Origin: Pseudomonadota bacterium
Lineage (GTDB): Bacteria; Pseudomonadota; Alphaproteobacteria; Acetobacterales; Acetobacteraceae
Direction of reading: 5' to 3'
Length of the DNA stretch: 54,939 nt
NCBI GenBank assembly: GCA_018240405.1
Contig: JAFEFW010000618.1
Span: 1 to 54,939, forward strand
Shown here: positions 13,778 to 25,461 of the stretch, piece after piece
How the letters are laid out: each line of letters starts with the position of its first letter
How positions within the stretch are numbered: position 1 is the stretch's first letter
Program-made: the position numbers and the translations under genes
Notes under the pieces: model-generated
The model's database searches: none
The model's input: only the letters and a program-made list of their open reading frames with translations
Told to the model about the DNA's origin: nothing

Positions 13778-16700
13778 ATGTTCGACGGATCTGCGTCGAC
13801 CCTCGGTAACAAGGCGCAACCGGCCCACCCCCTTGCGTGGCATTTGTTCCGACTTTGCATCGCACTGGTGCTGCCGGTTTTGCTGTTCGCCGTGGCCTTG
13901 GCCTGGCTCTACGTTGACTCGCAACGAGCAAGCCTGGAAACGACGGCGCAGGCGGTTGCACGCGGTGCAGCACATGCGGTTGATCGGGAACTGACCCGGG
14001 CGACCATTGCTGGCAAGATGCTGGCACAATCACGTTCAATCGCGGTCGGCAACCTGGAGCGGGTCGCACAACGGGCGGCCGGCCTGCGTGAAGAGCTTGG
14101 GCTCGATGTACGGCTGTATGACCAGACCGGGCACCTGCTTGTTGACACCGCGAAAGCCCGCGGCGACGCCCAGCCGCCGGTACGCCCCCCACTGGCCGAC
14201 GCATCGCAGGCGAACCAGCCGGCAATCTCAGACTACGTCGTCGACACCATTGCGGGTCCTGGAGCGCAGATCACCGTTCCCGTGCGAGACGCACAGCAGG
14301 TCACCCATCTGCTGGTCATTCCGGTCCCTGCCAGCCGCATCCGCGAGATTGCGCATGGGCGGGCAGACAAGTGGATGACAATCATCACAGATCGCCTGGG
14401 CGTTATTGTCGCCCGCTCCGAGGGCTTGCAGCCGCCGGTGGGCCAACCCTTTCCGCCTGCGCTTATGGCGGAAACCGCTGGTCGCGAGACCGGCATTGTT
14501 GTTGCCGATGATCTGGATGGACATCCTGTTCTTGCAGCCTTCAGCCGGTTGCCAACATCGGGCTGGGCGGCATGGGCGGTCGCGCCCGTCGCCCAGATGG
14601 ACTCGCCGCTTAAACAGTCGATCGGCGCCCTGTTGGCGCTGGCTGCGCTGCTCACTGTGCTATCGAGCGCGCTGGCGACCCACTTCGCGCGGCGCATTGC
14701 CCGCTCTGTCGGAGCATTACGGGCCCAGGCCGCCGGCCTCCGTGCCGGCGAGGCGGTTACACCGCCGCCGAGCGATGTGGCAGAACTTTGGGATGTGAGC
14801 CAGGCGCTGGCGCTGGCGGCAGCGGACCGGCTCGCCGCGGAGGCGCAACTACAGGAGCAGAACCTGGCGCTAAAGCATGCCTCCAAGCGTCAGGAGGACA
14901 TTCTGGACGCTTTGCCGGCCCTGGTGGTGCTGCTTGACGGCGACGGACGAATTGCCGCGGTGAATGAGGGATGGCGGACCAACCCGCGCGTGGGACCAGC
15001 CCAGCGGTCCATGGTCGGCGATGACTACCTGGCCGCCTGCCTGCCCGGCGCGCGGGCGGGCGACGCACAGATCAAGGCCACGCTCGAAGGGTTGCAGGAG
15101 GTTGTGGCGGGACGACGGCAGCGCTTCGAGACGATTTACACGCTGGCGCCGCCCGGCGGCGATCCATGCTGGTTCCAGTGCATCGCCGTCGCACACGCCG
15201 TGGATCACGCCGCGGGTGCCACCGGTGGGGCCGTCGTGATGCACCTCGACATGACAAAGCAGGTGCAGACACAGGAAACCCTGGCAGAACGCGAGGCGCA
15301 GTTGCGGCTGTTCATTGAGCGGACGCCAGCCGCCATCGCCGTGTTCGATACAGATATGCGGTACCTGTCAGTGAGCCGGCGCTTCCTGGCCGACTATGGA
15401 CTTGACACCACCGACCCCAACGCTTTGCTCGGCCGTTCCCACTATGATGTCTTCCCCGACATGATGGAGCACTGGCGTGCGGTGCACCGCCGCGTGCTGG
15501 TAGATGGCGAAACTCTGTCGGCGCAGGAGGAGGCGTTCCCGCGCCATGATGGCCGTATCGACTGGGTGCGCTGGGAGATGACGCCATGGCGTCACCGGGG
15601 CGGCTCGATCGGCGGCGCCGTCCTGTTCACGGAAATGGTTACAGAGCGGAAGCAGGCCGAGGCCGCGCTGCGAAACAGTGAAGCGCGGCTTCGCCTGGCA
15701 ATCGAGGCGACCGGGCTTGGCACCTTGGATGAGGATCTGCTGAGCGGCCGGGCGGTATGGAACAACACGGCGTTCCGCATCCTGGGCCTCGAGCGGGCCA
15801 GCACCCCGCTCAGCCGGAAGGACTGGAGGGACAGCGTCCACCCTGACGACCGCGATCGGGTGCAGGACGCATATCTCGCCGCGCGATCCGCCGGTACTCT
15901 GTTCCAATGCGAGCACCGCATCATCCGGCCCACCGGCGAAGTTCGCTGGATTCGCCCCCTTGGCCGCTTCCTGCAGGGCGCCTTCGGTGAGGCGCTCCGC
16001 TTTGTCGGCGTCTTCAGTGATATCACCAGCCTGAAACACGCAAGCGAGCGGCAGGAGCGCCTGCTGCAACTGATTGAGCAAAGCAACGACTTCATTGCTC
16101 TGGCCGATGCCTCGGGCCAGTTGACCTACATGAACCGCGGCGGCCGGCAGATGATCGGGCTGGGAGCCGACGCCGACCTGTCTGCGCTCAACTTCGCCGA
16201 CTACGTAGCGCCGGAGTCACGCGACCTGTTCGAGACCACGGTGGTGCCCACGATCGTCGCGCAGGGGCTGTGGGAAGGCGAGATGCAACTGGTGCATCAG
16301 CGCACGGGCGCACGGATCGACATCTTCCGCTCCACCTTCGCGTTGCGCGACGAAACCGGTCTGGTGTCCGGCTTCGGTACGGTAAGCCGCGATATTACGA
16401 CCGCCAAGCAGGCTGAAGCCGCGCTGGCCGAAAGTGAGGCGCGGCTGCGCTCGATCCTGGAATCGGTTCCCGACGGCATGGTGCTGTCTGATGAAACCGG
16501 GACCATCCAGTCCTTCAGCGCCACCGCGGAGCTTCTGTTTGGCTGGTCGGCCAGCGAGGTCGTCGGCCGCAACGTGTCAGTCCTGATGGCGTCGCCCGAC
16601 AGGGACCACCACGATGTGCACATGGCGCGCTACATTGAAAGTGGCATCAAACGGGTCATCGGCACCGGCCGCACCGTGACAGGACTCCGTAAGAATGGCT

Positions 16701-17602
16701 CGACCTTCCCGTTAGAAATCTCACTGTGCGAACTGCGTGTCGGCGGGCGGCGGCTGTTCACCGCCTTTCTGCGCGACCTGACGGAGCGCCTTGCTACGCA
16801 GGCGCGGATGCAGCAGATGCAGGTGGAACTGGCACATGTCTCCAGGTTGAGCGCTGCCGGTGCGATGGGATCGGCGCTGGCGCACGAACTGAACCAGCCG
16901 CTGACGGCGATCGCCAGCGCAGTACGGGCGGCGCGGCGCATGCTTGGAACGGCGAAGATGCAGGGTGTGCCGCCGTCGCTGATCGATGCCATGGACCTTG
17001 CGTCCGACCAGGCGCTGCGGGCGGGACAGATCGTGCGACGCCTGCGCGAGTTTGTCGCCCGCGGCGGTGATACCGACCGGCAAGTCGAGTCATTGTCGCG
17101 TCTGATCGAGGACGCAAGCGCCCTGGCGCTCGCGGGGACAAGGGAACGAGGTTTGCGTGCCCAATTCCTGCTGCCAGAGGAACTGCCGCCGGTCATCGTC
17201 GACCGAGTGCAGATTCAGCAGGTGCTGGTGAACCTGATCCGCAACGCCGTCCAGGCGATGACAGACGAGCCCGAAGACGTCCCGCCCGGCCTCCGCCGTG
17301 AGCCGGAGTTGATCGTCGCCGCGCGCGTGGCTGACGATGAGGCGGTTGAGGTGTCGGTCTCGGACAACGGGCCGGGCCTCCCGCCTACAGTCCTGGACCG
17401 CCTGTTCGAGCCGTTCGTGACGACCAGGGCCGGCGGCATGGGCGTCGGGCTGTCAATCTGCCAGTCGATCATCCGCGCCCACGGCGGACAGCTCTGGGCG
17501 GAGGCCCATCCCAGCGGCGGAACCATCTTCCGCTTTACATTGCCAAGCGCACACTTGGAGCCGATGCTGACGGCCCGACATGCCGATGACCCGCCAGTCT
17601 GA
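13778..17602 (+). CDS. fixL: FixL-like membrane histidine kinase with five PAS domains, last one heme-type
   Basis: A 1274-residue sensor kinase. Order: membrane helix (about 24-44), extracytoplasmic sensing region, second helix (about 282-302), HAMP-like stretch, five PAS domains (starting near 374, 510, 636, 761 and 889), HisKA with His1036 (AHELNQPLTAI) and a FixL-type ATPase domain. The fifth PAS aligns without gaps to the heme PAS of Bradyrhizobium FixL: proximal ligand His200 corresponds to His945, and Arg206, Arg214 and Arg220 correspond to Arg951, Arg959 and Arg965. This suggests oxygen sensing by heme; the other PAS domains and the outer region may add inputs. FixL of rhizobia has far fewer PAS domains, so this is an enlarged version. 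The 3' end overlaps the fixJ-like gene by 23 bases. No strong ribosome-binding site precedes the ATG. Confidence 0.85.
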   Translation: MFDGSASTLGNKAQPAHPLAWHLFRLCIALVLPVLLFAVALAWLYVDSQRASLETTAQAVARGAAHAVDRELTRATIAGKMLAQSRSIAVGNLERVAQRAAGLREELGLDVRLYDQTGHLLVDTAKARGDAQPPVRPPLADASQANQPAISDYVVDTIAGPGAQITVPVRDAQQVTHLLVIPVPASRIREIAHGRADKWMTIITDRLGVIVARSEGLQPPVGQPFPPALMAETAGRETGIVVADDLDGHPVLAAFSRLPTSGWAAWAVAPVAQMDSPLKQSIGALLALAALLTVLSSALATHFARRIARSVGALRAQAAGLRAGEAVTPPPSDVAELWDVSQALALAAADRLAAEAQLQEQNLALKHASKRQEDILDALPALVVLLDGDGRIAAVNEGWRTNPRVGPAQRSMVGDDYLAACLPGARAGDAQIKATLEGLQEVVAGRRQRFETIYTLAPPGGDPCWFQCIAVAHAVDHAAGATGGAVVMHLDMTKQVQTQETLAEREAQLRLFIERTPAAIAVFDTDMRYLSVSRRFLADYGLDTTDPNALLGRSHYDVFPDMMEHWRAVHRRVLVDGETLSAQEEAFPRHDGRIDWVRWEMTPWRHRGGSIGGAVLFTEMVTERKQAEAALRNSEARLRLAIEATGLGTLDEDLLSGRAVWNNTAFRILGLERASTPLSRKDWRDSVHPDDRDRVQDAYLAARSAGTLFQCEHRIIRPTGEVRWIRPLGRFLQGAFGEALRFVGVFSDITSLKHASERQERLLQLIEQSNDFIALADASGQLTYMNRGGRQMIGLGADADLSALNFADYVAPESRDLFETTVVPTIVAQGLWEGEMQLVHQRTGARIDIFRSTFALRDETGLVSGFGTVSRDITTAKQAEAALAESEARLRSILESVPDGMVLSDETGTIQSFSATAELLFGWSASEVVGRNVSVLMASPDRDHHDVHMARYIESGIKRVIGTGRTVTGLRKNGSTFPLEISLCELRVGGRRLFTAFLRDLTERLATQARMQQMQVELAHVSRLSAAGAMGSALAHELNQPLTAIASAVRAARRMLGTAKMQGVPPSLIDAMDLASDQALRAGQIVRRLREFVARGGDTDRQVESLSRLIEDASALALAGTRERGLRAQFLLPEELPPVIVDRVQIQQVLVNLIRNAVQAMTDEPEDVPPGLRREPELIVAARVADDEAVEVSVSDNGPGLPPTVLDRLFEPFVTTRAGGMGVGLSICQSIIRAHGGQLWAEAHPSGGTIFRFTLPSAHLEPMLTARHADDPPV

Positions 17603-18257
17603 CACTCTGCCCAGCATCCATGTTGTGGACGACGATGACGCCGTCCGCAGAGCCGTCGCGTTGTTGCTGGAGACGGCCGGCTGGGCGACCGCAACGCACG
17701 AGTCCGGCAACGCGTTTCTGGGCGCGCTGCCGGGCCTGGAGGAAGATCTGATTGCCTGTGTGCTGACCGATGTGCGCATGCCGGGACTGGACGGCGTCGC
17801 GCTGGTGCAGCATCTGCGCAAAGCGGGATTTGCCCGGCCCATTGTGGTGATGACGGCGCATGGCGATGTCACCACCGCTGTGCACGCCATGAAGAGCGGC
17901 GCCAATGACTTTATTGAAAAGCCGTTCGACGACGATACCCTGCTCGCGATGATCGACACCGCCATGCAGGCAACCGCCAGCGGCCAGGGCAGCGCGGGCG
18001 CGGTCTCGCGCGAGACGCTGGAGGCCGTCCGCCGGCTGTCCACGCTGTCGCCCCGCGAGCGGGAGGTGCTGGACCTGCTGGTCAGCGGCAAGCCCAACAA
18101 GCTGGTGGCCCACCAGCTTGGCATCAGCCAGCGCACCGCGGAGGTGCACCGCGCCCGGCTGATGGAACGGCTGGGCGTCCGCAGCCTGGCTGAAGCTGTG
18201 CGGCTGGCAGTCAGTGCGCAGCTTGCGGGCGGCGAAGGCGACCGGCTGGCGTGCTGA
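17580..18257 (+). CDS. fixJ: FixJ-family response regulator
   Basis: A 225-residue two-domain regulator. The receiver (about 12-130) has the acidic cluster VVDDDDAV, phospho-acceptor Asp64 (LTDVRMPG), MTAHGD with the conserved Thr, and the Lys of IEKPFDDD. The C-terminal LuxR-type helix-turn-helix (about 150-215) shows LSPREREVLDLLVSGKPNK and ISQRTAEVHRARLMERLGV, close to FixJ. It starts inside the end of the FixL-like gene, so the pair is one translational unit and the kinase is its likely partner. FixJ proteins activate fixK when phosphorylated at low oxygen; the FixK-like gene lies convergently about 600 bases away. A start at ATG 17586 is equally possible. Confidence 0.9.
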   Translation: MPMTRQSDTLPSIHVVDDDDAVRRAVALLLETAGWATATHESGNAFLGALPGLEEDLIACVLTDVRMPGLDGVALVQHLRKAGFARPIVVMTAHGDVTTAVHAMKSGANDFIEKPFDDDTLLAMIDTAMQATASGQGSAGAVSRETLEAVRRLSTLSPREREVLDLLVSGKPNKLVAHQLGISQRTAEVHRARLMERLGVRSLAEAVRLAVSAQLAGGEGDRLAC

Positions 18258-18406
18258 CACCCGACGAGTGGAGCGACGCGACCGGCGCGTAACGGGCCAT
18301 GGCGTCGACGCACCAGCAACCGGCGATAAGCGATGCCGGCATCCTGCCAGACCGTGTCGCACCGGCGGCAATGGTAATCGGTAACAGCGGCAGCGCTCAG
18401 CGCCCC

Positions 18407-18871
18407 CTAAGCCGCTGACTGCATCATCGCCTGCGCAACGGCATCGACGACGGCGTCCTCGTTGACAGGCTTCTTCAGCACAGCAACCGCACCGAGCGCC
18501 GCGGCACGGCGCGGCAGCAAATCATCTGTGCTGCTGCCGATGACGATGGCAGGCATGGTGATCCCGACTGCCGGCAATCGCTCCAGCAGCGACAACGCGT
18601 CGACCCCGTTGGGCAGATGATGGTCGATGACGAGGCAGCCCGGGCGACGACCACATGCGACGCGAGCGAAAGCGACGAGCGACGGGAAACCCTGGGCACA
18701 GTAGCCGGATGCACGCAGCCGCATGGCGAGCCTGCGCCGGAAGCCTGCATCCTTACCGACAATATGGATCACGGGGCCTGTGTCAGGCCCGGTGCACGGC
18801 TGCTGAGCGGTACGCGACGGCCGCTTGAAACAATCGCACAGGCTAGGCGACTGCAGGCAATCGTTGGGCAT
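18407..18871 (-). CDS. Cysteine-rich single-domain receiver, FixT-like
   Basis: A 154-residue protein with only a receiver domain (about 32-150) after a Cys-containing N-terminal extension. The phospho-acceptor Asp83 (VIDHHLP), the Ser of VIGSS and the Lys of LKKPVNED are kept, but the acidic pocket reads GKD rather than the FixJ-type DDD. Seven cysteines are present (5, 12, 14, 26, 58, 73, 79), unusual for a receiver. In Caulobacter, FixT is a single-domain receiver that binds an iron-sulfur cluster and inhibits FixL; the position here, coupled to a FixK-like gene beside fixLJ, fits that role. This is inference. Start ATG 18871 has GGGAGG 11 bases upstream and overlaps the end of the regulator gene by 29 bases; the frame also allows 18904. 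Confidence 0.7.
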   Translation of the reverse strand: MPNDCLQSPSLCDCFKRPSRTAQQPCTGPDTGPVIHIVGKDAGFRRRLAMRLRASGYCAQGFPSLVAFARVACGRRPGCLVIDHHLPNGVDALSLLERLPAVGITMPAIVIGSSTDDLLPRRAAALGAVAVLKKPVNEDAVVDAVAQAMMQSAA

Positions 18872-19583
18872 GGCCAGGGCAACCTCCCGAAAACGCCGCC
18901 GCACCGCAGCTCATGTCCACCAGTGTCCGGCGATCAAGAATCGTCACCTGCCGCTGTCGCACCACATCGATGACCGCGCGACGGCGCAGATCCTGGATAC
19001 AGCGGCTCAGGGTTTCGGGTGTGATACCCAAATAGTCGGCGGCATCGCGCCGGCTTATGGGTAGCACAAATGGGGTTGCCTCTCGCGCTGGAGGACGGCC
19101 GACGAGACGAAGCTCCATCTCCAGCAGGAATGCGGCAAGACGCTCTGGTGCCTCCAGCCGGCCGAGGATCAGCAGGCGGCTACGCGTCATGTCCAGACTA
19201 CGCAGGGCTTGATCGCGCATGCGCAGCATTGTCTCAGGATCGACCGCGGTATGCGCGGCCATCGGGCGCTGGCGGGTCTGCAGTAGCACCGTTTCATCGA
19301 TGCCCGCGGCCTCGGCGGAAAAGCCGTGGCAGGTATCAAGCTCGTCGTCGCCGAACACATCGCCTGGCAGGTAGAATTCGAGAATCTGGCGCCGCCCGTC
19401 AGGCAGCAGCTTGCAGGCCCGTACTGCGCCAGACACCACCTCATAGCGGTGGTCAATGGCGTCTCCCTCATGGAACAGCGGCTCATCGGTCCGGCAGGTG
19501 AGCCGCCGGGCCAGGACAAGGCCCCGCCGGTGGGAGAGCGACGCGGCATGGCCGTTGTAAGCTGCTGTGACCTGCGCATTCAT
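18843..19583 (-). CDS. Crp/Fnr-family regulator, FixK-like
   Basis: A 246-residue transcription factor: cyclic-nucleotide-binding-like barrel (about 25-130), long dimer helix, and a winged helix with recognition helix ITPETLSRCIQDL. Glu190, Ser193 and Arg194 match the E-xx-SR residues by which FNR and FixK read TTGAT/ATCAA. The N-terminal cysteine cluster of true FNR is absent (cysteines only at 30, 57, 85 and in the C-terminal part), so it is probably not an iron-sulfur oxygen sensor and fits FixK better. It is cotranscribed with the FixT-like receiver. A perfect FNR box 436 bases from its start lies in the promoter of the divergent RidA-type gene and is a likely target. Confidence 0.83.
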   Translation of the reverse strand: MNAQVTAAYNGHAASLSHRRGLVLARRLTCRTDEPLFHEGDAIDHRYEVVSGAVRACKLLPDGRRQILEFYLPGDVFGDDELDTCHGFSAEAAGIDETVLLQTRQRPMAAHTAVDPETMLRMRDQALRSLDMTRSRLLILGRLEAPERLAAFLLEMELRLVGRPPAREATPFVLPISRRDAADYLGITPETLSRCIQDLRRRAVIDVVRQRQVTILDRRTLVDMSCGAAAFSGGCPGHAQRLPAVA

Positions 19584-19666
19584 GTCTGAGTTGGCCTCAT
19601 GCCGCTTGGCCGGACATGGTTGTTCCGTGCCAAAACGAAAGCATCCTCACCGGCGTAGGCGGGACA

Positions 19667-19699
19667 CCGAACCGGCCGGTATCGGGCCGGCCGGTTCGG
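19667..19699. repeat. Perfect inverted repeat, 13-bp arms
   Basis: CCGAACCGGCCGG and its exact reverse complement flank a 7-base loop (TATCGGG). The hairpin would be very stable. It lies about 85 bases upstream of the FixK-like start with no T tract after it, so a terminator for a known gene is unlikely. Confidence 0.5.
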
Positions 19700-20018
19700 A
19701 CCCGGCGCAGTAGCGCGCCATCAAGAAGTTCTGCAGGCCCCGGAACGAGCCACCACTGCAGAGCAGTGCCGAAGTGGTTATGTCCCACCCTACCCCCCGG
19801 GATTGACCTGAACGGGGATCACCCGTCGTTAGGGAGTATGCTGCGTCTGCTCACGCTGCGCGATTTCGTAATTGTACTTAGGCAAAACCGACGGTGTAAA
19901 CGCAAATATTCACAAACCGATCAGCCGGTGAACCAAAATTGTAATTTCCTCAATTATTGGGGTCGCCCGCTCAATCTGGTCCCGCCCATCTGCCGTGGCA
20001 TGGACTGCCGGCTGTTGG

Positions 20019-20032
20019 TTGATCCAGATCAA
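20019..20032 (+). promoter_or_regulatory. Perfect FNR/FixK box upstream of the RidA-type gene
   Basis: TTGAT-CCAG-ATCAA matches all ten defined positions of the FNR/FixK consensus. Its centre is about 95 bases before the TTG start at 20121. A site centred at -41.5 would place transcription start near 20067, with TAGACC-like sequence at the -10 position. This matches the recognition residues of the FixK-like protein encoded next door. Confidence 0.7.
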
Positions 20033-20120
20033 CGACACGATCACGGAACGGTCCGTAGACCCTGTGGCTTCGGAATATACACGCATCAGTTGTAATGCGT
20101 GGCTTTTTGGGAGACCGGCA

Positions 20121-21284
20121 TTGGCAGCTCACCGGGATGGTTTGGCCTATCGTAGCATCGCCGGGGCAACCGGCAGCGCAGAGCATTTCATCACCATCGA
20201 CGCCCCGGATGGCCTCACCCTGCCGCGGCAGATCGACGCAGTGGCGCAGCGCTATGCCGAGGCGATGCAGACCCTGAACCTGTCGCCGGACACCGCCGTA
20301 TTCCGGCGGATCTATGTCAGCGATGCCGCCAACCAAGCTGAGCTGGTGCGGGAAAGCAGCCTGTTCACCGAACCCATGGGCAGCCCTGTCGCCGTGTCAA
20401 TGGTGCAACAGCCGCCGCTGCGTGGTGGGAAGATCGCCCTGTTCGCCTACCACCTGCAGACACCGGCGCCATTGCCGAAGCAGCACGTCGCACCGGGCCA
20501 CGTGCTGGTGGAGAACGGCGACCTGAAGCACCTTTGGAGCACGCGGCTCTGCACCGTGAACCAGAATGGGCCAAGCAATGCCGCTGCGCAGACACGGGAC
20601 GTGTTCGACCGGTTGATCCGGGTTCTTCACTCCCATGACGCGACGCTGGCCGAGAACTGCGTCCGCACCTGGCTTTATGTGAAGGACGTCGATGTCTTTT
20701 ACCAGGACGTCGTCGACTCCCGTATTGAAGTGTTTGACCGCCACGGATTGACGCGCGACACACACTACATTGCCAGCACCGGGATCGAGGGCGCCTGCTC
20801 CCACCGGTATGACGTCGTGCTGATGGATGCCTATTCGGTCCTGGGTCTGCAACCGGAGCAGGTGACATACCTGAACGACTTCAGCCGACTGTGCGCGACC
20901 AAAGACTACAACGTAACGTTCGAGCGTGGCACACGGATCGGTTATGCCGATCGTGCGCATCATTTCATTTCCGGCACTGCCAGCATCGACTCGTCAGGAC
21001 GCGTGGTGCATGTCGGTGATGTCGAACGACAGTTGGACCGCGCGCTGGAGAATGTCGACGCATTGCTGCGGTCGGGCGATGCCAATATCGACGACATGAC
21101 GCACTTCCTGATTTACCTGCGCGACCCGAGTGATACGGCCCGGATCGAGGCGCAGTTGCAGGAGCGTTTCCCGGAAGTGCCGCGCCTGACACTGCGCGGG
21201 CCCGTGTGCCGGCCGGAATGGCTGGTCGAGGTGGAGGGAATTGCGGTGGCGGAACAGCACGTCCCGGCGTTGCCGGTGTACTGA
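20121..21284 (+). CDS. Rid (YjgF/YER057c) family protein with an extra N-terminal domain
   Basis: A 387-residue protein. The C-terminal part (about 250-385) is a Rid domain: SGTASIDSSGRVVHVGDV, an LDRALENVDALL helix, LIYLRDPSD, and CRPEWLVEVEGIAV, where the Arg corresponds to the catalytic Arg of RidA that handles enamine/imine intermediates. The N-terminal 240 residues may be a second, divergent Rid-like domain, an architecture also seen in chorismatase-type enzymes; activity is not assignable. I choose TTG at 20121, with GGGAG at 20109-20113; an earlier in-frame ATG at 19995 would put the FNR box inside the coding region. The perfect FNR box suggests expression at low oxygen. Confidence 0.72.
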   Translation: MAAHRDGLAYRSIAGATGSAEHFITIDAPDGLTLPRQIDAVAQRYAEAMQTLNLSPDTAVFRRIYVSDAANQAELVRESSLFTEPMGSPVAVSMVQQPPLRGGKIALFAYHLQTPAPLPKQHVAPGHVLVENGDLKHLWSTRLCTVNQNGPSNAAAQTRDVFDRLIRVLHSHDATLAENCVRTWLYVKDVDVFYQDVVDSRIEVFDRHGLTRDTHYIASTGIEGACSHRYDVVLMDAYSVLGLQPEQVTYLNDFSRLCATKDYNVTFERGTRIGYADRAHHFISGTASIDSSGRVVHVGDVERQLDRALENVDALLRSGDANIDDMTHFLIYLRDPSDTARIEAQLQERFPEVPRLTLRGPVCRPEWLVEVEGIAVAEQHVPALPVY

Positions 21285-22649: not shown

Positions 22650-24188
22650 CTAGCGCAGGGCGGTTGTCTCGCCCACTGCGTTGTCGAAGCCGGGATGTGC
22701 CGCCAGAAGCGCCTTGAGGTCGGCCACCGCATCCAGCATCCGCGCCCGGTCGACCGTGTCCCAGGCGAGCGCCGGCACGATTGCCATCACCAAAGGCATA
22801 TGCTGTGACCCGACAAGGCTGTCGAGCGCCATCCGCGCGCGCATGGTCAGGCCGGGTCGTACCGGCGCACCATCCACCCAAAGGCCGACCGCCACCGCGT
22901 AGGCCGGATCGTCGGCATGCATCATCCGCCAGGTCCGCGGCGGACCACTGTCAGCGCTGAGCCACGATTCCGCCAGATTCTCGGTCAGCACTGGCCGGAT
23001 CAGGCGCCGGCGCGCGGCCATCAACGCGCCAGCGGTGGCGCGTGGTGAAAGTGCCTGCCAGTAAAGATCGAAGGCAATGCCATTGCAGACGATGCGCTGC
23101 GTGCCTGATCCTGGAATATTTGTTACAGGCGTGGCAACGGGGACGGTTGCGCAATCTGGTCCGAATTGGAATGCGAGCGGCGCCGTCGTCGGCATCGTGC
23201 CGGCCATGGCGAGGCCCATGGTAATCGCGGGACCGAGGGCGGCAATGACCGCAACGCCAAAGCTGACGGCATAGCCAGGACCGGGGGCAACGTGGCCGCG
23301 GGCGGGCTCTGGCAACGACGCCTCGTCGGGCAGTGTATCCTCGCGGAACGGTAGCCCCAGCAGGATCAGCAGCAGGATGACAGCGGAGAAGAAAATCCAG
23401 CCGTACAGCACATGATCCGCCGCCGCCGCCTGCGCGCTGCCCAGCACCCAGCCCAGCAGGACGATACCCAGCCCGCGAAACCCGTTGGCGATGATCGGCA
23501 CAATGATCGAGGCGACAATGAACAGGGACCGGCGCACCGGGCTGCGGTACATCATCAGCGCATACAGCACGCCGAAGGCGATGGACGCGATCAGGAAGCG
23601 CAGGCCAGCACAGGCCTCGGCAACAAAGAACGTCCCCTGCGGTATCTCGATAATGTACCCGTCGATGTAGGCCGGGATACCGAGGATCGCCAGGCCGTGG
23701 CGGATGAACCAGGTGGTGACATCCTGCAGACGCGGGGTCAGAAACTCACCGAACGGGACAAGGAAGTATAAGTAAAGCAACGGCCCCAGGCAGGCCTTGT
23801 AAAGCCGCCAGCCCAGCACACCGAGAAACAGGACCTGCAGAAATGTTATGACGGCAAGCTGGCGACCTTCCATGATTCCGAGCCGCTCTGCCATCAACCA
23901 TACGATGGCGACCGGGACAGCGAGCAGGGCGGCCGCTGGCAGCGGCGCCGGGGCAACCGCGGCAAGTTCGCTCTTGCGGTCCCACAGGAGGTAGAGCGTG
24001 ATCGGAACGACCAGGAAACAGTGGTTGTACGCCGTCGAGTCGAGCCAGGTCTGCACCGCCAGGGCCGCTTCCTGGTAGAAGACAAGGCAAATCAGGACCA
24101 CGCCAAGACAGAGCGGCGCGACGATATTGCGCCAGGGCGGAACGTCGGCGCGAGACGGTACGGCCCCGGCGATGACAGGCGCATTCAT
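22650..24188 (-). CDS. xrtA: Exosortase A fused to an EpsI domain
   Basis: A 512-residue inner-membrane protein. The first 290 residues form the eight-helix exosortase, the presumed protease-transpeptidase that processes PEP-CTERM proteins. The catalytic triad is visible: Cys193 (EACAGLRF), Arg238 (NGFRGLGI) and His259 (ADHVLYGW). The C-terminal part (about 320-512) is an EpsI-like extracytoplasmic domain, often fused to or paired with XrtA. Start at 24188 gives the usual N-terminus; the frame runs further upstream but overlaps the glycosyltransferase gene and is Arg/Trp-rich. The gene sits in the leftward exopolysaccharide operon, as XrtA genes usually do. Confidence 0.93.
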   Translation of the reverse strand: MNAPVIAGAVPSRADVPPWRNIVAPLCLGVVLICLVFYQEAALAVQTWLDSTAYNHCFLVVPITLYLLWDRKSELAAVAPAPLPAAALLAVPVAIVWLMAERLGIMEGRQLAVITFLQVLFLGVLGWRLYKACLGPLLYLYFLVPFGEFLTPRLQDVTTWFIRHGLAILGIPAYIDGYIIEIPQGTFFVAEACAGLRFLIASIAFGVLYALMMYRSPVRRSLFIVASIIVPIIANGFRGLGIVLLGWVLGSAQAAAADHVLYGWIFFSAVILLLILLGLPFREDTLPDEASLPEPARGHVAPGPGYAVSFGVAVIAALGPAITMGLAMAGTMPTTAPLAFQFGPDCATVPVATPVTNIPGSGTQRIVCNGIAFDLYWQALSPRATAGALMAARRRLIRPVLTENLAESWLSADSGPPRTWRMMHADDPAYAVAVGLWVDGAPVRPGLTMRARMALDSLVGSQHMPLVMAIVPALAWDTVDRARMLDAVADLKALLAAHPGFDNAVGETTALR

Positions 24189-24234
24189 TGGCCGTGACCC
24201 TCGTCGCGTTTCCCGCCACGCATGCAATAAGCTT

Positions 24235-25461
24235 TCATGGTAGGCCGGCAAACGCCGGCGCCCGTTGCGGGTGAAGTATATCATCGAACCCGCGTAGCGT
24301 GGCGGCCCAATCGTAATGCTCCAGGATACGCGACCTTGCCGCGGCGCCGATCCCGAAGCGGTCACCATCGCGTGCCAGGCTGATGCAGGCGGCAGCGAAA
24401 TCGTCAGCGGTATCGGCCAGGACCACCTCGCGTCCGGGCCGCGCCGCGATCCCTTCCAGCGCGCCGGTCGTAACCACGGTTGGACGCGCGAGCGACATCG
24501 CCTCCAGCACCTTGTTCTGGATGCCACGGGCAATCAGCATTGGCGCGACACCAGCGGTGGCATGGGCGACGTAAGGACGGACATCCGGCACACGGCCCGT
24601 GACGAAGACGCCGGGCTCCCCGGCGAGACGCTGCACCTCCGGCGCTGGCGCATTACCGACGATGTGGAACTGCGCCTGCGGCAGGTCGCGGCGAATCAGT
24701 TTCAGGATGTCACGCGCGAACCAGACCACGGCATCGATATTCGGCTTGTAGTCCATCGTGCCGGTGAAGACGAAGTTCGGCCGCGTGATGTCATAAACCG
24801 GCGCGAATCCATGGCCAGGATCGAAGTAGCGGTGATCAACGCCGCTGGAGACGCCGCGGATGCGATCGGCGCAGTCGGGATGCAGGGTTCGGAATAGCGC
24901 CGCTTCCGGCTCCGAGACGAAGCTGGACAGGTCGCATTCGGTGGCGATGCGCCGCTCCAGAGCCGCCACCTTGCGCCACTCGCGCCGGTAGACGAAGCGC
25001 ATCGGGCCGGGCGTGGTCTCAGCATAGGCGCGCCATTTTTCGGAATCGACGTCTGCGAGGTCGGTCAGGCGGAGGCCGGTGCGCGGCAGGTCCAGGATAT
25101 ATGGCGCCATATTGCCGGAGTTGACGAAGATGACCTCCGGCCGAACGGTTTCGACCACGTTGCGTACCCACCGGCTTAGGCCGCGATCGCGGAAGAACGT
25201 CACGCTGAGCGACTCGCCCGTCATCAGACCGGTCAGGCAGGTGATCCTGTTGAGCCGCCGGTCCATGCTCGCGACGTGGATGTCCTTTGCCAGCGCGGCG
25301 ATCGTCGGAATGTGCTGCGCATCGGACGGATCATCGATCAGGCAGCCGACATACACGTCGAAGGACTGCGCCAGGTATTTCAGGATCTGCAGCGGGCGGA
25401 TCTTTTCGCCCTTGATTGGCGGATAGGGCAGACGCTGCGTCAGGTAGAGCAGGTTGGCCAT
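24235..25461 (-). CDS. Glycosyltransferase, XrtA/PEP-CTERM-associated (TIGR03087-type)
   Basis: A 408-residue GT4-like enzyme of the subfamily found only with exosortase A systems. Typical features are the start LLYLTQRLPYPPIKGEKIR, the acceptor-domain DLADVDSEKW near 135, FTGTMDYKPN near 232 opening the donor domain, and the E-x7-E-like VLEAMSLARPTVVTT near 320. It acts at the cytoplasmic membrane face, adding a sugar to the repeat unit of the exopolysaccharide; the sugar is unknown. It follows the FemAB-like gene by 5 bases. Confidence 0.9.
   Translation of the reverse strand: MANLLYLTQRLPYPPIKGEKIRPLQILKYLAQSFDVYVGCLIDDPSDAQHIPTIAALAKDIHVASMDRRLNRITCLTGLMTGESLSVTFFRDRGLSRWVRNVVETVRPEVIFVNSGNMAPYILDLPRTGLRLTDLADVDSEKWRAYAETTPGPMRFVYRREWRKVAALERRIATECDLSSFVSEPEAALFRTLHPDCADRIRGVSSGVDHRYFDPGHGFAPVYDITRPNFVFTGTMDYKPNIDAVVWFARDILKLIRRDLPQAQFHIVGNAPAPEVQRLAGEPGVFVTGRVPDVRPYVAHATAGVAPMLIARGIQNKVLEAMSLARPTVVTTGALEGIAARPGREVVLADTADDFAAACISLARDGDRFGIGAAARSRILEHYDWAATLRGFDDILHPQRAPAFAGLP

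Follow-up and report, generated by a model that had tools for sequence, protein, structure and literature searches.

A probable FixT-like pseudo-receiver encoded with fixK beside fixLJ in Acetobacterales

Introduction

What does a stand-alone receiver domain do when its gene overlaps that of a FixK-like regulator and faces fixLJ, and do its many cysteines make it a redox sensor? The question is raised by a 154-residue protein encoded in a 54,939-nucleotide stretch of DNA from an acetobacterial genome, referred to here as the window. The FixT brakes described in the literature consulted come from two genera, Sinorhizobium and Caulobacter, whose versions have diverged so far that a sequence model built on either fails to recognise the other. 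FixT inhibits the autophosphorylation of FixL, and phosphorylation of FixT was not observed in the work covered by the consulted part of PMC7078487. According to the same part of that source, Caulobacter FixT is a receiver able to hold an Fe-S cluster, its cluster cysteines C53, C56, C59 and C64 are ‘largely conserved’, and the published FixTs share 21.5% identity; with identity this low, the name FixT denotes a function more than a family of sequences. In the excerpt of PMC9430884 that was consulted, Osp, which lacks two acids, inhibits CckA, both FixTs likewise lack these acids, and none of these proteins is phosphorylated.

Results

The receiver gene and its neighbours

The features of the window that bear on the question are listed below, with positions relative to the phospho-acceptor Asp written as D-n.

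13778..17602, plus strand: fixL-like multi-PAS histidine kinase, 1274 aa, called from domain composition
16427..16807, plus strand: haem-type PAS of FixL, matching the FixL PAS 1dp6 (E 1.2e-35)
17580..18257, plus strand: fixJ response regulator (receiver and LuxR-type HTH), called from domain composition
18407..18871, minus strand: probable single-domain pseudo-receiver, FixT-like, 154 aa and stop, called from the ORF, Pfam PF00072, three orthologues and the AlphaFold2 fold
18623..18625, minus strand: D83, the phospho-acceptor position, kept (alignment)
18635..18655, minus strand: C73 (D-10) to C79 (D-4), with C79 aligned to Caulobacter FixT C64 and C73 one residue off C59
18749..18757, minus strand: G39-K40-D41 at the end of beta-1, in place of the acidic pair (D-D in FixJ; alignment)
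18773..18871, minus strand: N-terminal extension, residues 1-33, with Cys5, 12, 14 and 26, predicted to be disordered
18843..19583, minus strand: fixK-like CRP/FNR regulator, 246 aa, with Pfam cNMP_binding and HTH_Crp_2, overlapping the receiver gene by 29 bp

The receiver ORF runs from an ATG at 18871 to a stop at 18407-18409, and its translation places cysteines at positions 5, 12, 14, 26, 58, 73 and 79. It contains one Pfam domain, Response_reg (PF00072, residues 35-145, E 8e-10), which stands alone as the receiver domain of FixT does. AlphaFold2, run on a five-sequence alignment, predicts a full receiver fold for residues 34-153 (mean pLDDT 77). The nearest solved fold found by Foldseek is the FixJ receiver, with 1dbw as the best PDB match, while 1yio comes first among the PDB sequence matches and the FixJ receiver second and third. 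The first-pass annotation had described a stand-alone receiver with seven cysteines, coupled to a fixK-like gene and facing fixLJ. The translation and the domain search confirm the former, and the 29-bp overlap together with the convergence of fixL and fixJ on the minus-strand receiver-fixK pair confirms the latter.

The neighbours score under the cut-offs of the corresponding NCBIfam models: FixL 537 bits (cut-off 850), FixJ 228.9 bits (cut-off 255) and the FixK-like protein 121.9 bits (NF050806, cut-off 300). The last PAS domain of the window FixL matches solved FixL haem domains and keeps the His and Arg positions of an RxxHD...IGxxR motif, which is also found in the FixL proteins of S. meliloti and of two relatives introduced below, C. 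roseus and G366; we take these two residues to be the haem proximal His and the conserved Arg of FixL.

Four FNR/FixK-box sites with at most one mismatch occur in the window, against 2.46 expected. One perfect site, the FNR/FixK-type TTGATCCAGATCAA at 20019-20032, lies 436 bp upstream of fixK within another ORF, namely in the 5′ end of a RidA-type ORF (19995-21284) whose true start may be further downstream. R. globiformis has one site with one mismatch about 1 kb upstream of fixK, and no such box was found in the loci of C. roseus, G366 or contig C592 of the window's own genome. Scans of 18200-20100 gave two promoter-like matches (mean of shuffles 0.4), of which the one at 19871-19900 lies upstream of fixK, and a single terminator-like match (mean of shuffles 1.4); neither the boxes nor these matches count as evidence here. 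The FixK proteins end in RLPAVA in the window and in R. globiformis (L063) and in RLLAA in C. roseus (L110), tails that we take to resemble an ssrA-type degron; by eye, the other FixK rows compared end differently, some of them being cut by locus ends. The minus strand of the window also carries exosortase and glycosyltransferase genes, at 22650-24533 and 24235-25461, perhaps an exopolysaccharide locus.

Orthologues and gene linkage

Three orthologues of the receiver were found, in Rhodopila globiformis DSM 161, Crenalkalicoccus roseus YIM 78023 and a genome designated G366. The first two belong to Acetobacterales (Acetobacteraceae and Roseomonadaceae, respectively, in the NCBI taxonomy), and the window species is a distinct member of the genus group that includes R. 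globiformis, with whose receiver it shares 54% identity over the domain. A profile built from these two receivers gives C. roseus 123 bits and G366 119 bits, with the next receiver at 92.5. With a four-member profile the members, which match by construction, reach 219-227 bits against 96 for the next. The search covered 396 genomes, in each of which at most nine candidates were scored, together with two overlapping searches of 80 relatives' genomes each, and within this scope it returned no fifth member of the clade. A scan of genome contigs gave two loci, both already among the known orthologues, and none of 42 matching plasmid records spanned 80% of the receiver query.

The receiver is the gene after fixK in three of the four clade genomes. 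C. roseus shares the layout of the window, a fixK-receiver pair facing fixJ-fixL. In R. globiformis the pair lies on the same contig as fixJ (67% identity) and fixL (61%), about 17 kb away, while in G366 the receiver faces fixJ-fixL with no adjoining fixK, and the best-scoring fixK-like match there reaches 84 bits at 33% identity. Relatives of the window FixJ in the three other genomes share 67, 62 and 58% identity with it, so that a FixJ of at least 58% identity accompanies the receiver in all four genomes. Orthologues of fixK are present in three of the four, with 56% and 50% identity in the relatives; among 34 genomes of the genus, the window's own included, the best FixK match after its own is that of R. 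globiformis (56%), followed by one at 47%. The linkage to fixK and fixLJ, proposed from one locus, is thus supported by its recurrence in relatives. The clade appears to be small and rare, yet conserved and found with one kind of FixL-FixJ pair.

Other arrangements are present in the same genomes. In R. globiformis a different histidine kinase (L063:8186-9361, minus strand, N-terminal start uncertain) lies directly upstream of fixK with a 4-bp overlap, and this kinase could be the target of the receiver. The commoner module of the genus is fixL-fixJ-receiver-fixK in one direction; it forms a separate locus that the window's own genome also carries, on C592 (L033). At least three further FixJ-type single receivers occur in that genome, on C579 (L192), C443 (L165) and C488 (L166).

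The phosphorylation pocket

Where the adjacent FixJ reads V-D-D-D, the receiver reads V-G-K-D, and the earlier observation that GKD replaces the FixJ-type DDD is confirmed by this comparison. Across the clade the acidic pair is GK, GE, AE and SD, with DD absent from all four members, and the switch Thr/Ser is replaced in all four (G, N, A, A). The phospho-Asp (D83 in the window) and the Lys (K134) are retained throughout. For comparison, 87 single receivers were collected, and removal of the four clade rows and of four short or poorly matching rows left 79 others; DD is found in 64 of these and a Thr or Ser switch in 75, and DD with Thr in all 11 FixJ rows. The Lys at the second pocket position is peculiar to the window protein, the three other clade members keeping an acid (E or D). 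In CheY D13K, which has Lys at the corresponding position, activity is seen without phosphorylation.

The description of the protein as a FixT-like receiver with a degraded acidic pair is likewise upheld, the pocket being AAD in S. meliloti FixT and VED or VAD in Caulobacter-type FixTs above the NCBIfam cut-off. DPD and DED occur in two Caulobacter-family rows that miss the cut-off, which shows that not every FixT-like protein has lost the acidic pair. The clade receivers keep the Asp and Lys of a phospho-accepting response regulator and have lost DD and Thr/Ser in all four members. Judged by these residues, the window protein is most likely a FixJ-type single-domain receiver whose phosphorylation chemistry has been lost, i.e. 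a pseudo-receiver, and the losses would fit a FixT-like protein that acts on FixL without phosphorylation. Among other single receivers beside fixJ/fixK, one has a GED pocket (L095:744-1160, minus strand) and another carries Lys at the phospho-Asp position (L109:1411-1887, plus strand).

Placement relative to FixT

The NCBIfam FixT model NF051882 gives the window receiver 20.1 bits (cut-off 150). S. meliloti FixT, identified on pSymA by its place between fixJ and fixK since the record is unannotated, also falls under the cut-off with 27.9 bits, and failing a model that misses this FixT too is weak evidence. The genome to which the window belongs has a single match to the FixT model with an E-value of 1e-10 or better, the receiver on C592 (48.1 bits). 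The best NCBIfam match of the window receiver is the FixJ model (59.8 bits, far under the cut-off).

In a tree of 103 rows the four orthologues form one clade (support 100/99) apart from eight Caulobacter-family FixT rows, two of which are below the NCBIfam cut-off and from which L219 was left out. Forcing the clade together with these rows is disfavoured (AU p 0.033, 71 of the 103 rows, S. meliloti FixT being left out for its very long branch); the few alignment columns give the tree and this test modest weight, and the same long branch makes the place of S. meliloti FixT in the tree unsure. Identity of the receiver to the FixT rows is 19-32%. In the same tree the FixJ rows from the window, from C. 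roseus and from G366 group together (98/97); when R. globiformis FixJ is included, in a 72-row tree, a weakly supported branch (86/52) sets the four FixJ rows apart from the rest. Within the resolution of the tree, the receiver clade appears to be separate in descent from Caulobacter FixT; on the available evidence the window protein looks FixT-like in logic, and we do not file it as a FixT member. Among the papers listed by searches of the open-access literature, which include the Caulobacter FixT paper, no description of this receiver clade was found; one of them, PMC13327599, mentions both Rhodopila and FixL.

Cysteines and the N-terminal tail

Twelve window genes have a mean Cys content of 1.29% (72 of 5600 residues). 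The binomial probabilities of at least four Cys in a 33-residue stretch (8e-4) and of at least seven in 154 residues (0.004) are post hoc values for a feature picked by eye, and the three Cys in the 121 residues of the receiver domain alone are ordinary (P 0.20, post hoc). Seven Cys are found in three of the 87 single receivers, the window protein among them. Four Cys before the domain also occur in two of the 79 others, where some tails may be over-long as a result of mechanical first-start calls.

All four clade receivers have 24-33 residues before the domain, with tail Cys counts of 4 in the window and 1, 1 and 1 in the orthologues. Only Cys5 of the four tail cysteines recurs, in one of the three orthologues (R. 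globiformis) and within the fixK overlap. Cys12, 14, 26, 58 and 73 are not matched in position by any Cys of the three orthologues, save for loose Cys at D-8 or D-5. Ahead of the phospho-Asp, Cys lies at D-10 and D-4 in the window, at D-8, D-5 and D-4 in R. globiformis, and at D-5 and D-4 in C. roseus and G366. The D-4 Cys, the only candidate ligand common to the four, is a generic FixJ-type position and nothing special: 74 of the 79 other single receivers have it, as do 10 of the 11 FixJ rows.

Caulobacter-type FixT was reached through NF051882 (cut-off 150 bits), for which the control was positive only in Caulobacter vibrioides. Eight genomes gave a sequence over the cut-off and, with L214 duplicating L213, seven of these are distinct. 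The L213 ORF has Cys53, 56, 59 and 64, the published numbers, at D-15, D-12, D-9 and D-4. This four-Cys motif is present in six of the seven, in keeping with the published ‘largely conserved’. The seventh, L219 (about 1501-1803), has none of the four cysteines, D-4 included, and is a natural FixT above the cut-off without the Fe-S motif. Two Caulobacter-family rows below the cut-off have Cys at D-12/-9/-4 and D-11/-4. The motif was found in none of the four clade receivers and in none of the 79 other single receivers of the genus and class, occurring only in Caulobacter-type FixT. Aligned with it, the window cysteines at D-10 and D-4 fail to reproduce the D-15/-12/-9/-4 spacing, with C79 matching C64 and C73 one residue off C59. 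The suggestion that the Cys-bearing extension is a new version of the FixT redox sensor was not borne out: the NCBIfam FixT model goes unmatched and, with the tail cysteines unconserved among orthologues, the idea fails its own test. An Fe-S role for the window receiver is unlikely on these alignments, and we interpret the Cys-rich tail as disordered, particular to this species and devoid of a conserved role.

It may be that translation begins at an internal GTG (V34), which would drop the tail altogether. AlphaFold2 predicts the tail to be disordered (pLDDT <50 at residues 1-24 and 28-30). The codon-position G+C is coding-like in the tails of R. globiformis and C. roseus and is not clearly so in the window (0.58/0.64/0.76) or in G366 (0.76/0.70/0.67, from a mechanical TTG start). 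The last five fixK codons, TTG CCT GCA GTC GCC, are identical at 5 of 5 in the window and R. globiformis; across the entire fixK-receiver overlap, six of the eight conserved residues share a codon, whereas the figure for the rest of fixK is 57 of 119, and TTG, CCT and GCA are minority codons in window genes (10%, 9% and 13%). Such unusual codon identity suggests constraint on the second frame, reading CLQSP in the receiver. This speaks for the upstream ATG, but the observation is a small one made after the fact.

Discussion

What has been observed or computed in favour of a role comprises the predicted receiver fold, the lost pocket residues, a gene linkage that recurs, the presence of a similar FixJ in each genome and the haem-PAS signature of FixL. 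By analogy with FixT on FixL or Osp on CckA, we give somewhat better than even weight to the receiver being a FixL brake in a feedback loop that includes its own fixK-receiver operon, and the broader statement, that it modulates FixL, is likely. In such a loop low oxygen would make FixL active and FixJ~P would turn on the fixK-receiver operon. The receiver would then bind the transmitter domain of FixL and damp its autophosphorylation without taking phosphate, and the damped FixL would close the loop; here we infer the inhibitory sign as well as the operon induction and the binding. Several findings speak against such a brake. The receiver of the other fixL-fixJ-receiver-fixK module in the same genome scores higher on the FixT model, the clade lies apart from Caulobacter-type FixT, G366 lacks a fixK neighbour, and one origin of the four FixJ partners is weakly supported (86/52).

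Among the rivals the best case belongs to a different partner, because R. globiformis places another kinase upstream of fixK. Here the receiver would be a connector whose partner is FixK, FixJ or some unrelated histidine kinase such as that one, and the kinase-fixK-receiver order agrees with this, as does the fixK overlap in the window and R. globiformis, which suggests coupled synthesis. Nevertheless, this kinase adjoins fixK in one genome only, and co-occurrence is fullest with FixJ (four of four genomes, against three of four for fixK orthologues), which leaves the connector unlikely. That the receiver is instead a phosphate sink or slow receiver, drawing off phosphate from FixL at D83 in competition with FixJ, could be argued from the retention of D83 and K134 in all four members and from the acid (E or D) that three of them keep at the second position of the pocket. 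We hold it to be quite improbable given that the first acid and the switch Thr/Ser are lost in all four and that the second acid is Lys in the window; moreover, the consulted parts of PMC7078487 and PMC9430884 report that phosphorylation of FixT and Osp was not observed.

Decay of the gene to a functionless remnant in the window species would explain the pocket Lys, the loss of one of the paired Cys from the window copy and the long branch (0.92, although that of G366 is 0.94), but the frame is open, identity to R. globiformis is still 54% over the domain, the predicted fold is intact and the linkage is kept, making decay very unlikely. An equally slim chance, if not a slimmer one, attaches to a redox-sensing FixT in which an Fe-S cluster is held by Cys5, 12, 14 and 26, perhaps together with C73 and C79. 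Its appeal lies in the seven Cys with four in 33 residues (binomial 8e-4, post hoc), in the precedent of a cluster-holding receiver (PMC7078487, in the part consulted), and in the five identical codons of the fixK overlap in R. globiformis, a hint that Cys5 is translated and constrained. Five of the seven cysteines have no position-matched counterparts in the three orthologues, the ligand spacing differs from that of Caulobacter, and the tail is predicted to be disordered with its translation uncertain. We attach similarly little probability to the variant in which a thiol tail (Cys5, 12, 14 and 26, possibly with Cys73 and Cys79) was acquired in one species and binds a cluster or forms disulfides. 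If true, the tail would make the protein a second, redox-sensing FixL brake that evolved apart from Caulobacter FixT, with its receiver locked by the pocket Lys.

With the FixL brake as the preferred reading, the protein appears to be a genuine pseudo-receiver of the FixLJ system, conserved although rare; since its suggestive cysteines are unconserved in relatives, it departs only modestly from a known theme. The existence in Acetobacterales of a separate and rare clade of FixLJ-associated pseudo-receivers suggests repeated recruitment of degenerate receivers to FixL. Joint loss of the acidic pair and the switch residue beside fixLJ offers a practical marker for proteins of this kind. The cysteine claim does not extend Fe-S receivers beyond Caulobacter.

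Set beside known systems, the window protein shares with Caulobacter FixT (NF051882) the single receiver, a degenerate pair (GKD vs VED/VAD), the D-4 Cys found in most of the latter and, from published work, the FixLJ context. Unlike it, the window protein lacks the D-15/-12/-9/-4 motif, falls in a different clade, has a full-length middle where that of the Caulobacter type is shortened, and is only 22% identical to L213 (54 columns) and 32% to L220 (101 columns; below the cut-off). S. meliloti FixT has similarly lost two acids (AAD), has the D-4 Cys and adjoins fixK and fixLJ, but identity is 19%, a 4-residue lead stands in place of the tail, and the gene order is fixL-fixJ-fixT-fixK. The FixJ receiver domain is 26% identical in the window, 30% in S. 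meliloti and 35% in the C592 locus of the same genome, whereas the window receiver is without the DNA-binding domain, the acidic pair and the switch residue of FixJ. Finally, Osp of Rhodobacter sphaeroides is, in the consulted part of PMC9430884, a receiver-like kinase inhibitor without two acids; it targets CckA and is likened to the window protein by description, not by sequence.
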